DNA of 64,000 nucleotides from Algoriphagus pacificus (GTDB lineage: Bacteria; Bacteroidota; Bacteroidia; Cytophagales; Cyclobacteriaceae). Position numbers and translations under genes: made by a program. How positions within the stretch are numbered: the first letter of the stretch is position 1; each line of letters opens with the position of its first letter. Positions 27,903-33,153 of this stretch are shown here, piece after piece. The DNA is taken from assembly GCF_017254845.1 (NCBI RefSeq), contig NZ_JAFKCU010000002.1, forward strand, positions 1,105,956-1,169,955. Reading direction: 5' to 3'. The notes below the pieces were generated by a model. It was not told where the DNA came from. It made no database searches and was given only the letters and a program-made list of their open reading frames with translations.

Positions 27903-27952
27903 AAAAAAAAGGATTTGGAAAAATTTTCAATGTGAAAATTTCCAAATCCTTT
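27903..27952 (-). terminator. Terminator after hisB
   Basis: A long hairpin (arms 27908-27929 and 27933-27952, 20 pairs with a two-base bulge) lies 30 bases past the hisB stop. On the minus strand it runs into eight T (27903-27910). It closes the hisGDCB transcript before any other his gene. Confidence 0.85.
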
Positions 27953-27981: not shown

Positions 27982-29079
27982 TTAAAGTACTCCCTTCGTG
28001 CTAGGCAATTGATTGATATTTCTGGCATCTCTCATTACCGCCATTTTGATTGCTCTGGCTAGTGCTTTGAAAATAGCTTCAATTTTATGATGCTCGTTTG
28101 TGCCTTCAGCTTTGATGTTCAAATTGCATTTGGCAGTATCTGAGAAAGACTTGAAGAAATGATAAACCATTTCAGTTGGCATGTCGCCGACTTTCTCTCG
28201 TTTGAATTTTACGTCCCAAACAATCCAAGGCCTTCCACCAAAGTCAATAGCTGCCTGTGCCAAGACATCATCCATGGGTAGGAGGAAACCGTAACGATAG
28301 ATTCCTTTTTTGTCTCCCAGGGCATTCAAATAGGCTTCTCCCAAGGCAAGAGCAGTATCTTCAATGGTATGATGCTCGTCAATATGCAAATCTCCTTTAA
28401 CCGTGATTTCTAAATCCGTGCTGCCGTGCTTTCCCAATTGCTCAAGCATATGATCAAAGAAATGAAGACCTGTTGAAATCGCACATTTTCCAGAACCATC
28501 CAGATTCAATTTGATATGAATGTCAGTTTCGGAAGTTGTTCTTCTGATTTCAGCTGCTCTTGGAGGCATTTTCAGGAAATTGTAGATCTCATCCCAATCT
28601 TTGGTGCTTAAAGCTGCCTTTTCATTGTCTTCACCAATAAAGATTGCTTTCGCCCCAAGATTTTCTGCTAGCTGCACATCGGTCAATCTATCTCCAATCA
28701 CATAGCTATTTTCTAGATCATATTCCTCTGAGAAATATTCTGTCAAAAGTCCTGTTCTCGGTTTACGGGTAGGAGCATTTTCATGCTCAAAAGTTTTGTC
28801 TACATGAATTGCTTTGAAGAAGATGTTTTCTTGCTCTAGCGTTTTCAACATTTTGTATTGAGCTGGCCAAAATGTGTTTTCAGGAAATGAATCGGTGCCC
28901 AATCCATCTTGATTGGTGACCATGACTAATTCATAATCTGTTTCTTCAGCAATTTTTCGAAGATTTGAGATCGCCTTTGGAAGGAATTCGAGTTTTTCCA
29001 AACTATCTACCTGATAATCAGTAGGTGGTTCTTTGATAATAGTTCCGTCACGATCTATAAATAATACCTTCTTTTTCAT
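27982..29079 (-). CDS. hisB: Bifunctional histidinol-phosphatase/imidazoleglycerol-phosphate dehydratase
   Basis: Fusion protein of 365 residues catalysing steps 6 and 8 of histidine synthesis. The N-terminal HAD phosphatase domain (1-165) has FIDRDGT (nucleophile D9, D11) and [20 protein letters not shown]. The C-terminal dehydratase (about 175-365) begins [20 protein letters not shown] and has [14 protein letters not shown] and [16 protein letters not shown], which hold the paired metal-binding His motifs, and [14 protein letters not shown] near the end. It lies 18 bases after hisC and is the last gene before the terminator at 27903-27952. Confidence 0.97.
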
Positions 29080-29097
29080 AAAAAGGGGATAATAGGT

Positions 29098-30159
29098 TTA
29101 AACTGATTTGGAGGTTACCTTCTTTAAATTTTCCAAAAAGGCCTCGTTTTCTGCCCTTGTGCCAACTGAGATTCTCAGACAATCTTCACAAAGAAGAACT
29201 TTTGCTCGGTTTCTGACAATGATCTTTTGCTCGATCAGGTCTTGGTAAACCTTCATGGCATTTGGGATTTTTACCAACAGGAAGTTCGCATGTGAAGGAT
29301 GAATTTTTTGAACGAAAGGCAATTTTGATAATTCGTTTTTAAGAAATTCCCTTTCTTCCAAGATCTCCTGGGTCATGGATTTTACTTTGTCATAATTTTT
29401 CAAAGAAGCCAAGACAGTGTCCTGGGTCAAACCCGAAATGTTATAAGGAGGCTTTATTCTATTTAGAATTGCAATGATTTCTTTGGAACCAAAGGCCATC
29501 CCTAACCTCAAGGAAGCAAGACCCCAAGCCTTTGAGAAGGTCTGCATGACCAAAAGGTTTGGATATTGTTCTAACTGAGTCGTGAAGCTAGGCTCATCTG
29601 AGAAATCAATATAGGCTTCGTCCACAACTACTATCCCCTTAAAGTTTTCCAGAACCTGAATAATGTCATCTCGCTTCAGTTTATTAGCACTTGGATTATT
29701 AGGGGAGCAGATAAAAATGATTTTGGTCTGATCATCTACTGCTGCAAATACCTTCTCCGGCTGCATCTGAAAGTCGCTGGTCAAAGGGACTTTTCGGATT
29801 GCCACATCATTGATGGAAGCACTGACTTCATACATCCCGTAAGTGGGAGGTAGTAAAATCACATTGTCCTTTCCTGGATTGCAAAATGCCCGGAAAAGTA
29901 AATCGATAGCTTCATCGGATCCATTTCCTAAGAAAATCTGATCGGCTGGAACTTCCTTGATTTTGGAAATTTCAGTTTTCAAATCGCTTTGGTAGGGGTC
30001 AGGATATCTATTGAAATCCTGATCCGTAATAGATCCGTATGGGTTTTCATTGGCATCTAAAAAGACTCCAATCTTCCCCGTATATTCATCTCTTGCGGAA
30101 GTATAAGGCTGAAGAGTAGCAATATGAGGTCTTAATAATGAGATTAAGTAGAATTTCAT
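29098..30159 (-). CDS. hisC: Histidinol-phosphate aminotransferase
   Basis: PLP enzyme of 353 residues (fold type I, class II aminotransferase) that converts imidazole acetol phosphate and glutamate to histidinol phosphate. Landmarks: LRPHIATLQPYTSARDEYTG at the start, LDANENPYG, NGSDEAIDLLFRAF, SPNNPSANKL, DEAYIDFSDEPS, and the PLP lysine in MQTFSKAWGLASLRLG. It starts inside the last codon of hisD (4-base overlap), so translation is coupled. The first eight residues are less conserved, and the start could in principle be elsewhere, but the overlap supports it. Confidence 0.96.
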   Translation of the reverse strand: MKFYLISLLRPHIATLQPYTSARDEYTGKIGVFLDANENPYGSITDQDFNRYPDPYQSDLKTEISKIKEVPADQIFLGNGSDEAIDLLFRAFCNPGKDNVILLPPTYGMYEVSASINDVAIRKVPLTSDFQMQPEKVFAAVDDQTKIIFICSPNNPSANKLKRDDIIQVLENFKGIVVVDEAYIDFSDEPSFTTQLEQYPNLLVMQTFSKAWGLASLRLGMAFGSKEIIAILNRIKPPYNISGLTQDTVLASLKNYDKVKSMTQEILEEREFLKNELSKLPFVQKIHPSHANFLLVKIPNAMKVYQDLIEQKIIVRNRAKVLLCEDCLRISVGTRAENEAFLENLKKVTSKSV

Positions 30160-31451
30160 ATCTTTTTGCTTTTCAGATATTTAAGACGAATTGAAACTGC
30201 ATTTTTGTGGGCGTCCAAAAGTTCATTAGCTGCCATTACCTCAATCGTTGGACCTAAGGATTTGATGCCTTCTTCTGTAATTTTCTGGTAAGTCATTTTC
30301 TTGACAAAGCTATCCAGTGATACACCGCTGTAGCTCCTTGCATAACCATAAGTTGGTAAGGTATGATTGGTTCCAGAGGCATAATCACCTGCCGATTCTG
30401 GAGTATAGTTTCCAATGAAAATGGAGCCTGCATTGTAGATAGCATCCACCACTTCCTCTTCATTCTCCACAGAAATGATTAAATGCTCTGGAGCATATTC
30501 ATTGATCAATTCCAAAGCTTCTTCTTGATTTTCCATCACAACTGCTCTGGAATTTTTCAAGGCTTTTTGAGCGATGTCTTTGCGAGGCAAATCTTCAAGT
30601 TGGGCATCAATTTCTTTCAATACCTGTTTGGCGATTTTTTCGGTAGTTGTCACCAAAACCACTTGGCTGTCAACTCCATGCTCTGCTTGGGAAAGTAAAT
30701 CGGCTGCTACAAAGGCTGGAATCGCAGTTTGATCTGCATAAACCAAAACTTCTGATGGTCCAGCAGGCATATCGATGGCTACTCCGTATTTGGTCGCCAT
30801 TTGTTTTGCAGCAGTTACGTATTGGTTTCCGGGACCAAAAATCTTATCCACTTTTGGTACTGAACTCGTCCCAAAAGTCATGGCAGCCACGGCTTGAGCG
30901 CCACCAACTTTCATGATTTTGGTAATCCCCACCAAATTAGCTGTGTAAAGAATAGCAGGGTGAATTTTACCATCTCGATCAGGAGGTGTACAAAGTACTA
31001 TTTCTTTACATCCTGCTATTGCAGCTGGGACGCCTAGCATCAATACCGTACTAAAAAGGGGAGCAGTACCTCCCGGTATATAAAGCCCAACGCGTTGGAT
31101 GGGCATACTTTTTCTTTTACAAACCACGCCAGGCATCACTTCCTCAACCAATTCTGGGGAAATTTGAGCTTTGTGGAATCTCTCAATATTCTCTTTAGCC
31201 ACCTGAATGGCCTCTTTTAATTCTGTGGGTATTGCAGCTGCAGAAGCTTTGATTTCCAGTTCACTTGCTTCCAGATTTTCCAAATGAACGTGATCATACT
31301 CCAAAGCAAATTTCAATAAGGCTTTGTCTCCATTCCTTTTTACTTTTCTAAGGATCGGTTTAACAATCTTATTGATCTGTTTAGTTTTTTGAACAGGTCT
31401 GGCCAGTTCCTTGGTCCAAGTATCCGAAGAAGGATTTATAAGAATTTTCAT
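30156..31451 (-). CDS. hisD: Histidinol dehydrogenase
   Basis: Zn-dependent NAD enzyme of 431 residues that performs the final two oxidations from histidinol to histidine. Conserved pieces: PGGTAPLFSTVLMLGVPAA, KVDKIFGPGNQYVTAAKQ, MPAGPSEVLVYAD, LLSQAEHGVDSQVVLV (Zn and catalytic His), YAPEHLIISVENEEE, and the ASGTNHTLPTYGYARSYSG region. Length is normal. It follows hisG by 39 bases and overlaps hisC by 4 bases. Confidence 0.97.
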   Translation of the reverse strand: MKILINPSSDTWTKELARPVQKTKQINKIVKPILRKVKRNGDKALLKFALEYDHVHLENLEASELEIKASAAAIPTELKEAIQVAKENIERFHKAQISPELVEEVMPGVVCKRKSMPIQRVGLYIPGGTAPLFSTVLMLGVPAAIAGCKEIVLCTPPDRDGKIHPAILYTANLVGITKIMKVGGAQAVAAMTFGTSSVPKVDKIFGPGNQYVTAAKQMATKYGVAIDMPAGPSEVLVYADQTAIPAFVAADLLSQAEHGVDSQVVLVTTTEKIAKQVLKEIDAQLEDLPRKDIAQKALKNSRAVVMENQEEALELINEYAPEHLIISVENEEEVVDAIYNAGSIFIGNYTPESAGDYASGTNHTLPTYGYARSYSGVSLDSFVKKMTYQKITEEGIKSLGPTIEVMAANELLDAHKNAVSIRLKYLKSKKI

Positions 31452-31490: not shown

Positions 31491-32351
31491 TTAGAGAATC
31501 ATTTTTTCAATAGGAACTACAAGAATTCCCTCGGCACCTGCAGCTCTGAGTTCTTCGATATGCTCCCAAAATTGGTCTTCATTAAGTACTGAATGAACAG
31601 ATGACCAACCTTCCTCTGCTAGTGGTAAAATGGTAGGGCTTCGCATACCCGGGATCAATTTAATGATTTTATCAATGGAGGCATTGGGAACATTCATCAG
31701 TACATACTTGCTGCTTTTACCTTTTTGAACTGCGTTCATGCGGAAAAGCAATTTATCCACGATGGCTTTTTTCCAATCATCCAATTGATTGTTGGCTATC
31801 AAAACTGCTTCAGATTTGAAGATTTCTTCCACTTCTTTCAAGCCATTCATCATCAAGGTAGAACCTGAGCTGACAATATCACAGATACCTTCTGCCAAAC
31901 CGATGCTTGGTGCGATTTCGACAGAACCGCTAATTTCATGGATATCAGCATTGATTCCTTTTTCATTGAGATAATCTCCAAGAATCTTAGGGTAGGAAGT
32001 TGCTATGTTTTTTCCTTCAAAAAATGAAATGCCATTATATTCCTGGCCTTTTGGGATGGCAAGAGAAAGTCTGCATTTTGAAAATCCAAGTTTTTTAAGC
32101 GTTTGAACGTCCTTGTCTTTCTCGACTAATTCATTTTCTCCCACGATTCCAAGATCAGCAACTCCGTCAGCCACATAACCAGGGATATCATCGTCTCTTA
32201 AGAATAGAAATTCAATGGGGAAGTTGGTGGAAGTGGATTTAAGTTTTCCGGTTCCATTGTAAAATTTGATGCCACATTCCTTGATCAAGGCAAGTGAGTC
32301 ATCGGATAATCTGCCGCTTTTTTGGACGGCTATTCGGATAATTTGTTCCAT
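31491..32351 (-). CDS. hisG: ATP phosphoribosyltransferase, long form
   Basis: First enzyme of histidine synthesis; it joins ATP and PRPP. At 286 residues it is the long HisG form, with catalytic domains (1-210; IRIAVQKSGRLSDDSL, DGVADLGIVGENELVE, ISGSVEIAPSIGLAEGICDIV, SSGSTLMMNGLKE) and a C-terminal ferredoxin-like HisG_C domain (about 210-286, NAVQKGKSSKYVLMNVPN and SPTILPLAEEGWSSVHSV) that binds histidine for feedback inhibition and needs no HisZ. It is the first structural gene of the operon. A leader with a His-rich peptide lies between its promoter and its ATG. Confidence 0.97.
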   Translation of the reverse strand: MEQIIRIAVQKSGRLSDDSLALIKECGIKFYNGTGKLKSTSTNFPIEFLFLRDDDIPGYVADGVADLGIVGENELVEKDKDVQTLKKLGFSKCRLSLAIPKGQEYNGISFFEGKNIATSYPKILGDYLNEKGINADIHEISGSVEIAPSIGLAEGICDIVSSGSTLMMNGLKEVEEIFKSEAVLIANNQLDDWKKAIVDKLLFRMNAVQKGKSSKYVLMNVPNASIDKIIKLIPGMRSPTILPLAEEGWSSVHSVLNEDQFWEHIEELRAAGAEGILVVPIEKMIL

Positions 32352-32544
32352 GAGGACAATATACGACTAGTACAAAATTGATTTGAATTAAATATGGGTG
32401 AATGGCCGAATCTCTGTTCATCAGCCCACCGGGGCGATATGTTTAAAATTATTCCTCTCAGGAGGAATGATGGAAATGATGCTGCACATGCGAATGCAGA
32501 GCAGTAGTTGAAAAAGCAATATTTGGGGTCGAGTTTTTCATTTC
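32352..32544 (-). promoter_or_regulatory. Histidine operon leader (putative attenuator)
   Basis: About 190 transcribed bases separate the putative promoter from the hisG ATG. They hold a His-rich leader ORF and three hairpins. One sits inside the ORF, with arms CTGCA/TGCAG at 32482-32499. One spans its stop codon, ATTCCTC/GAGGAAT at 32451-32468, with a 4-base loop and AATTTT next on the minus strand. The third is downstream, GCCC/GGGC at 32424-32435, extended by three pairs with one bulge. No strong T run follows the third, so the switch may be transcriptional with a weak terminator, Rho-dependent or translational. Confidence 0.75.
32458..32541 (-). CDS. hisL: Histidine operon leader peptide
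   Basis: A short frame of 27 codons (ATG 32541-32539, TGA 32460-32458) lies upstream of hisG on the same strand. Residues 15-25 read LHSHVQHHFHH: six His codons, all CAT, within ten. That is far above chance for His and is the defining mark of a his attenuation leader, in which ribosome stalling for lack of charged tRNA-His changes the folding of the downstream RNA. The stop codon lies inside a hairpin (32451-32468), so a terminating or stalled ribosome would change that structure. The gene symbol is used by analogy with enterobacterial hisL; the sequences are not otherwise alike. It was too short for the usual ORF cut-offs. Confidence 0.82.
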   Translation of the reverse strand: MKNSTPNIAFSTTALHSHVQHHFHHSS

Positions 32545-32550
32545 CGTTGG

Positions 32551-32580
32551 CAAATATAGAAATGGTAATTAAATAGCCAA
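32551..32580 (-). promoter_or_regulatory. Promoter of the his leader and hisGDCB
   Basis: On the minus strand, -7 TATATTTG (32551-32558) matches TAnnTTTG exactly, and -33 TTG (32578-32580) lies 19 bases upstream. Transcription would start near 32545, only a few bases before the leader-peptide ATG at 32541, so the leader message would be nearly leaderless. Confidence 0.6.
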
Positions 32581-32730
32581 GCAAGATGAGTTGAATTTTG
32601 AGAATTAAGCTGCAATTCATTTAGACAACTAATTTTTGCCAAAAGGGTTGACGTTTCCTCCATAAACTTCAAAGTTCTTTTATCTTTCCTCAACGAATAA
32701 ACCTTGGGCGGTATTAAAACCCACAATGCT

Positions 32731-33153
32731 ATGGAAAGTAAACGAACACCCATCTTTTTTGGAACTATCATTTCCTGGATGCTTTTTGCATTCATTGGAT
32801 TTGGAATGTGGGGATGTCCCACATACAATGTTTGGCAGCAAGAAATGAGTGGAAGGGCTGAATTCGCAAAAGCTGAACAAAACAGAAGGATCTTGATCGA
32901 GGAAGCAGCTGCTAATTTGGAAGCTGAAAAACTGAATGCTCAGGCTGAAATAGAACGAGCCAAAGGTGCTGCTGAAGCAATCAAAATCGAAAACGGATCG
33001 ATTTCTGAAAAATACATCCAGTATTTATGGGTAAGGCAGCAAAAGAATTTGGGAGACAAAACGGTAATTTATATTCCGACGGAAGCCAATTTGCCGATTC
33101 TAGAAGCAGGAAGATTACCCAAAATTCCAAATCAGAATCTGGACAACCAGTAA
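32731..33153 (+). CDS. Small membrane-anchored coiled-coil protein resembling the tail of SPFH/stomatin proteins
   Basis: With the ATG at 32731 the protein has 140 residues; an in-frame TTG 27 bases upstream is less likely. Residues about 7-30 form one membrane helix with a Cys-Pro just after it (GFGMWGCPTYNVW). Residues 38-85 are an Ala/Glu-rich coiled coil (EEAAANLEAEKLNAQAEIERAKGAAEA), and the end IQYLWVRQQKNLGDKTVIYIPTEANLPI matches the end of prohibitin/HflC-type proteins. The globular SPFH domain that normally lies between is absent. It is monocistronic and ends in a bidirectional terminator. The GC could form a lipobox-like site, but the spacing from the start is long. Role unknown, perhaps membrane-domain scaffolding. 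Confidence 0.75.
   Translation: MESKRTPIFFGTIISWMLFAFIGFGMWGCPTYNVWQQEMSGRAEFAKAEQNRRILIEEAAANLEAEKLNAQAEIERAKGAAEAIKIENGSISEKYIQYLWVRQQKNLGDKTVIYIPTEANLPILEAGRLPKIPNQNLDNQ

Follow-up and report, generated by a model that had tools for sequence, protein, structure and literature searches.

How does a histidine leader peptide control the genes behind it when the terminator through which such leaders are expected to act is weak in its own sequence and missing from those of its near relatives? The question is raised by a locus in Algoriphagus pacificus, analyzed here within a window of 64,000 nucleotides (the whole stretch of DNA that was studied), in which a short His-rich frame precedes hisG. 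In textbooks, attenuation is what connects translation with transcription, and most accounts identify it with a choice between terminator and antiterminator. The leader described below differs from that textbook attenuator, and its output step is unusual.

The frame lies upstream of an operon whose order, hisG-hisD-hisC-hisB, agrees with the Pfam domains, with the hisD-hisC-hisB block spanning 27982 to 31451 on the minus strand (Table 1). A U-tract terminator follows the operon, so the source genome uses terminators of this type. The box ahead of the leader, TATATTTG, is one that we take to be a Bacteroidota -7 promoter box, with TAnnTTTG assumed as the consensus for the phylum. A TAnnTTTG-type box ends 7-10 nt 5′ of the leader ATG in 74 of the 78 parsed named relatives, as a raw count. 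The leader begins so close to TATATTTG that the 5′ UTR would be very short. Initiation in Bacteroidota is unusual in general, with short 5′ UTRs and little use of Shine-Dalgarno sequences. Directly 5′ of hisG, the stretch TATATTG (32363-32357, minus strand) is conserved in the window and in relatives. It equals TAnnTTTG minus one base, with a full match in locus L003, and might possibly serve as a second promoter yielding a nearly leaderless hisG transcript. A frame of 149 amino acids on the plus strand (32704-33153) adjoins the leader promoter and has no Pfam match.

Table 1. Features of the his locus, in coordinates of the window
Feature	Position	Strand	Sequence, basis or remark
U-tract terminator at the end of the his operon	27903-27952 (ends approximate)	minus	read by eye
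hisB, two-domain	27982-29079	minus	Pfam domains
hisC	29098-30159	minus	Pfam domains
hisD	30156-31451	minus	Pfam domains
hisG, first gene of the operon	31491-32351	minus	PF01634, PF08029
Hairpin P2	32397-32430	minus	outer GGTG/CACC, inner GGCTGA/TTCGGCC; weak tail CATATTTAATTC
Motif CATATCGCCC	32432-32441	minus	apparently unpaired; in the window, ATAT begins 11 nt past GAGGAA of H1
Stop-codon hairpin H1	32451-32468	minus	ATTCCTC-CTGA-GAGGAAT, stop in loop
His leader peptide MKNSTPNIAFSTTALHSHVQHHFHHSS	32458-32541 (including stop)	minus	sequence; conserved HHxHHSS end
Paired His codons CAT CAT TTC CAT CAT	32467-32481	minus	predicted stall site
Hairpin H0	32482-32499	minus	CTGCA...TGCAG, inside the leader frame, directly before the paired His codons
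Promoter box TATATTTG	32551-32558	minus	fits TAnnTTTG; leader ATG 9 nt downstream

The original prediction, made from this sequence alone, had described a 27-codon frame on the minus strand, between a promoter and hisG, with six CAT codons among ten, and exactly such a frame is present. It runs from an ATG at 32541, 190 nt before hisG, to a TGA stop at 32460-32458, and the CAT codons whose first bases lie at 32496, 32490, 32481, 32478, 32472, and 32469 place six His within residues 16-25. When the 230 nt before hisG in the window were shuffled with dinucleotides preserved, at least five His in eight residues arose in 0 of 5000 shuffles and at least four in 15 of 5000. The prediction further expected a conserved short frame with clustered His codons upstream of hisG in relatives, and this was borne out. 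Among 90 Cyclobacteriaceae loci, eight residues hold at least three His in 84, at least four in 71, and at least five in 36, while the corresponding fractions in shuffles of these loci (n = 1800) are 0.035, 0.0039, and 0. The 90 loci represent the 93 hisG-bearing genomes among 98 searched, minus G037, G069, and G086, and the family label rests on the names of hisG relatives; the named records closest to the hisG of the window are Algoriphagus. A His-rich leader was also found in 78 of 80 named relatives, with the two exceptions (L134 and L137) having just 68 and 172 nt of sequence 5′ of hisG. Three loci (L165, L166, and L170, on two contigs of one MAG) carry an Algoriphagus-like hisG and leader in records titled Spirosoma fluviale, and these are likely mislabelled or mixed bins.

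The pattern of codon change bears on whether the frame is translated. In a set of 96 distinct leaders, the last two His codons served as the anchor, so the evidence comes from the first two paired ones alone. These are CAT or CAC in 88 and 87 of the leaders, and the 40 changes at them comprise 23 from CAT to CAC and 17 to non-His codons. This excess of silent changes suggests that the frame is translated. A leader-peptide attenuator calls for a short, translated-looking frame rich in the amino acid made by the operon, and such a frame is found here. Judged by its sequence and conservation, the leader very probably senses histidine. Owing to the HHxHHSS-stop end of the peptide, the distance from the first paired His codon to the stop is 21 nt in most of the 89 loci listed.

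The hairpins around the frame were compared in the same manner. The original prediction had drawn one hairpin at 32482-32499, a second at 32451-32468 enclosing the stop codon, and a third at 32424-32435, and expected hairpins to covary among relatives. The first two (H0 and H1) are present as drawn. At the position of H0, a 37-nt stretch has a mean z of -2.00 against base shuffles over the 96 leaders. An H1-type hairpin of at least 4 bp across the stop occurs in 83% of 59 family leaders without a strong terminator (mean z -2.54), compared with 50% of 26 and 44% of 36 terminator-bearing leaders (z -0.13 and -0.37). In 53 matches aligned by fitting to a covariance model, three of the six H1 pairs show two-sided change, in one sequence each, a level reached in 0 of 500 shuffles. 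The H1 covariation score of 0.054 is equalled by one slid control (0.055 at +3), and none of the slid controls gives more than one pair with two-sided change. At the third position, four GCCC/GGGC base pairs are feasible, but what is conserved at this place is the larger hairpin P2. Its arms covary: in other-type loci, the outer arms read GGAT/ATCC, GGTT/AACC, GGTA/TACC, or GGTG/CACC, and the inner arms read GGCTGT/ACAGCC, GGCTAT/ATAGCC, or GGCTGG/CCGGCC. In 30 distinct Algoriphagus-type P2 hairpins, 92% of the cells are paired as opposed to 34-51% when slid, a high value that is partly built in, as the 53 Algoriphagus-type hairpins were picked by requiring 8 of 10 pairs. The 36 other-type hairpins were picked by a pattern requiring the CATATYGCCC motif and a GGCT stem.

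A mutually exclusive fold between CATCA in the His codons and TGATG near the third hairpin had also been proposed. The complementarity exists, but it is patchy: TGATG falls inside P2 in 32 of 53 Algoriphagus-type loci and 5 of 36 other-type loci. Where it is present, the predicted pairing in ribosome-free RNA averages 0.092 (maximum 0.720) in the Algoriphagus-type and 0.061 in the other-type loci. The window itself gives 0.002, and the exclusive fold was rejected for this locus, though one Algoriphagus-type locus reaches 0.72.

The conserved core consists of the HHxHHSS-stop end, H1, CATATYGCCC at 10 (9-11) nt where kept, and P2. A covariance model of this core (R1), built from 27 sequences and used with strict filters that miss weak cases, has matches in 50 of the 291 order genomes, which belong to families f1 and f2 apart from one in f51, and in 5 of the 197 class genomes, one of them in f63, with a single match in each. 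At least six genomes of the same genus have no R1 match under these filters. In all 33 of the R1 loci that were fetched, hisG lies downstream on the same strand. The source genome has a single R1 match, and a 16-base core pattern occurs in it exactly once; with one or two mismatches, the pattern is found at 63 further places versus 23 for the reversed pattern. Most of the loci sampled from other Cytophagales families (40 loci, 13 families) are without a His leader by the rule used, with at least three His in eight residues in 7 of 40 loci and at least four in 4 of 40.

A textbook attenuator also has a U-tract intrinsic terminator before the first gene. This feature is missing in the near relatives, in that 0 of 78 leaders of named near relatives pass the terminator rule, and it is weak in the tail of P2 in the window. 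The P2 of the window does pass the automatic rule (-12.7 kcal/mol, tail TATTTAATTC, four T in the first five tail bases), and the window is accordingly one of 27 terminator-bearing loci among the 85 Cyclobacteriaceae loci with a leader. Because of the result for the named near relatives and the weak T tails after P2, we moved the window by hand to the group without terminators, which leaves 26 leaders with a terminator and 59 without. At least five T in the first 8 nt after P2 are found in one of the 53 Algoriphagus-type loci and in none of the 36 of the other type, whereas each of the 26 family leaders with a terminator has at least six T in eight around the tail. Among the 33 fetched R1 loci, five pass the rule, namely the window and four loci of family f2 (L288, L300, L303, and L309). 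With L260 of f51, which passes too, the f2 loci indicate that, outside the family of the window, the core does not strictly preclude a terminator-like hairpin, and these five loci are possible intermediates between the two architectures. H1 was itself tried as a terminator with a delayed T-rich tail and rejected; T-rich sequence lies 2-4 nt past H1 in some loci, and many relatives do not have it. Beyond the order, a Bacteroidia sample (L177-L210) has a His-rich leader in 34 of 34 loci and a strong U-tract terminator after it in 28. The remaining six are L179, which is borderline (-10.3), and L205-L209, all of family f4. In a wider sample of the phylum (L211-L230), 9 of 20 loci have a leader and seven of those have a terminator.

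The next property of a classical attenuator is an antiterminator that depends on the position of the ribosome. When complete leaders were folded at equilibrium, a switch was seen in 6 of 62 terminator-bearing leaders, as the finished terminator wins and hides it. A second test, chosen after this outcome was seen, truncated the RNA at the terminator loop and modeled a ribosome, its footprint assumed to be 13 nt, on each of the His codons or on the stop. The readout was the share of the terminator 5′ arm paired upstream. In terminator leaders of the family (26) and elsewhere (36), the mean maximum on stalling is 0.77 and 0.75, respectively, and the mean at the stop is 0.21 and 0.19; the switch rule is passed by 15 and 23 of them, or 38 of 62. 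The trp leader of the source genome, MKTIKANIWWWHLNSFQGKAQKARA (L313:1298-1425, contig C32, ahead of trpE), was treated likewise. It holds WWW and a U-tract terminator of -20.4 kcal/mol, and the 5′ arm of this terminator switches from 0.63 to 0.0 with ribosome position, so the cell appears from the modeling to hold a classical trp attenuator. Since the trp leader and the control leaders switch, the method detects classical attenuators, and the his leader behaves otherwise. Occupancy of the P2 5′ arm in window-type loci is 0.42 with the ribosome stalled and 0.29 with it at the stop, and 11 of 89 loci switch. The window shows no switch (0.59 versus 0.58), a flat result that we ascribe to the GCCC/GGGC hairpin, which forms independently of the ribosome. 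The reading of the locus as a histidine attenuator thus holds for the conserved His-rich leader ahead of hisG, with His codons kept through synonymous change, but not for the classical architecture, given the terminator, T-tail, and switching counts above.

We favor, tentatively and at a little short of an even chance, a his leader-peptide control element in which termination is nonintrinsic and most likely Rho-dependent. RNA polymerase would start a few bases 5′ of the leader ATG. When histidyl-tRNA is scarce, the first ribosome would stall when the codon at 32481-32479, the first of the paired His codons, occupies its A site, and its front edge would stop short of H1, allowing H1 to fold while the C-rich His tract stays covered. 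Rho would then be unable to load, and transcription would continue into hisGDCB. With ample histidine, the ribosome would open H1, depart at the stop, and bare the His tract and the downstream RNA, and Rho-dependent termination before hisG could follow. H1 together with CATATYGCCC at its fixed distance, where kept, may act as a hairpin-dependent pause that synchronizes polymerase and ribosome. Folding of the 89 loci under the same assumed 13-nt footprint is sensitive to where the ribosome stands: in most loci, H1 pairing reaches about 0.9 for an A site on the first of the paired His codons, is partial (0.05-0.83) for the second, and is absent for the third and fourth.

Base composition was the next source of evidence on Rho. 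The C-minus-G value after the leader stop is +0.085 in family leaders without a strong terminator (n = 57) versus +0.008 in terminator-bearing ones (n = 27, window included), with a Mann-Whitney p of 2.6e-7; leaving out the terminator hairpins changes the latter value to +0.016 and p to 3.0e-5. A Rho RNA-binding domain was found in 10 of 10 genomes searched, the source genome included. In the window, the value is +0.028, which is no excess over control 5′ regions (+0.032, n = 32), and the composition argument for Rho fails at this locus. It is for this reason that we hold the Rho version below an even chance and grant a motif-reading factor a minor share. The motif and its fixed spacing from H1 are also not required by a plain Rho model.

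That motif is central to a different reading, which we regard as unlikely but as the strongest of the alternatives: H1 would be a hairpin pause, CATATYGCCC would be read in trans by polymerase, a NusG-type protein, or another protein, and this factor would decide between termination and read-through, with the role of the ribosome being to open H1 or to move off it. The E. coli his leader has a hairpin pause about 11 nt from its hairpin. In 46 loci with 30 distinct spacers, the distance from GAGGAA to ATAT is 10 nt in 39, 9 nt in 4, and 11 nt in 3. A second set that reaches two other families and overlaps the first in some genomes gives 10, 9, and 11 nt in 18, 3, and 2 of 23 loci. This constancy despite variable spacers, the strong conservation of the motif, and the failure to find, on scanning the alignments by eye, any other invariant stretch complementary to it all suit a factor that reads the motif. 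Against such a factor, none of the 44 titled Algoriphagus loci carries the motif after H1; these loci retain the leader, together with H1 in full or shortened form. In the window, the motif is present. A second reading frame starting from the CATATCG motif after H1 was considered and rejected on one-base insertions seen by eye among relatives. Sequences like the motif also occur elsewhere. A CATATYGCC-like stretch lies inside the leaders of L054, L029, L010, L049, and L260, often as H-I-A codons near the N-terminus, and in L055 and L087 the CATATCGCCC motif is part of the His cluster itself (HWHHIAHCHHV and HWHHIAHFHYV). L206 of family f4 has an ATCGCC/GGCGAT hairpin at the stop codon that resembles the complement of the CATATCGCC motif.

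Taken further, the motif could define a distinct class of amino-acid leader in the Cytophagales, in which a ribosome-gated H1 and the motif at a fixed 10 nt, read by polymerase or a trans factor, replace the intrinsic terminator, with the classical form retained in related lineages and in the cell's own trp leader. We consider such a class doubtful.

Control could instead be exerted after transcription, with a stalled ribosome opening the hisG start region or protecting the mRNA. The nearly constant distance from leader to hisG fits this proposal (among named loci, about 95-111 nt where the end is of the HHxHHS type, and 81-92 nt in five variants). Predicted accessibility of the start region speaks against the translational form, as 0 of 75 loci differ by more than 0.2 between stalled and stop states, and P2 ends 45 nt before the start codon in the window; we judge control of translation or stability to be improbable. 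A classical intrinsic attenuator, with P2 as a weak terminator and upstream pairing as the antiterminator, is similarly hard to credit. P2 does occupy the terminator's place in related leaders, the window and the five possible intermediates pass the terminator rule, and terminator leaders of the phylum switch, as does the trp leader of the source genome. The failure of every named near relative under that rule, the scarcity of T tails, and the small difference in arm occupancy on stalling count against it. Least probable by far is that the short peptide, though conserved, plays no part in sensing histidine, given that the His codons are specifically kept and that the leader precedes hisG in every fetched core-model locus across several families.

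No Rfam family matches the window at the gathering score (three weak matches fall below the cut-off at E up to 10) or any of ten representative loci; the His_leader covariance model RF00514 matches neither the window nor these ten loci, and the T-box model has no match at gathering score in the window. In titles and the beginnings of abstracts of the open-licence literature, we found no his leader reported in Bacteroidota and no report of the terminator-less form. Vitreschak and others, in 2004, are said to list attenuators in Bacteroidetes/Chlorobi in their abstract, so attenuation in the phylum is probably not undescribed, and its classical His leaders may well already be in print.

With the proteobacterial his attenuator (RF00514), the present leader shares a His-rich frame ahead of hisG and hairpins in and after that frame. 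It differs in the lack of a U-tract terminator in near relatives and in a position-dependent antiterminator that is mostly not found in the lineage. Regulatory uORFs linked to Rho are known; tnaC is one, and it senses tryptophan rather than a lack of charged tRNA-His. In the toiL uORF, as described in PMC12121999, ribosome stalling governs downstream transcription via Rho, and the effect is relayed by translation of the following gene. That uORF senses antibiotics and not a lack of charged tRNA-His, and for the his leader a part for Rho is only inferred. Beside the his attenuators named in Proteobacteria, new ones have been reported in Firmicutes (PMC9413887), where by description, which is the basis of our comparison, a short leader with three to five consecutive His codons is combined with terminator/antiterminator pairs; the word Bacteroidetes was not found in the main text of that article. 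The Bacteroid-trp RNA (RF01692), listed in PMC2864571, is likewise an amino-acid leader element of Bacteroidetes, but it belongs to the trp operon. It matches neither the window nor any of 60 family genomes and was rejected as a parent element. A further comparison is with those His leaders in other Bacteroidia and in other members of the Cyclobacteriaceae that bear a terminator. They have clustered His codons at the same place before the same gene, and what sets them apart is a U-tract terminator, at about -11 to -24 kcal/mol, and, in 38 of 62, the stall/stop switch. Leaders with and without a terminator thus stand side by side within one family and at one gene, with the trp attenuator of the same cell as an internal control. 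The coexistence of these forms makes it testable how a leader-peptide switch loses its terminator and yet is kept, and makes ribosome-polymerase coupling in Bacteroidota testable as well.
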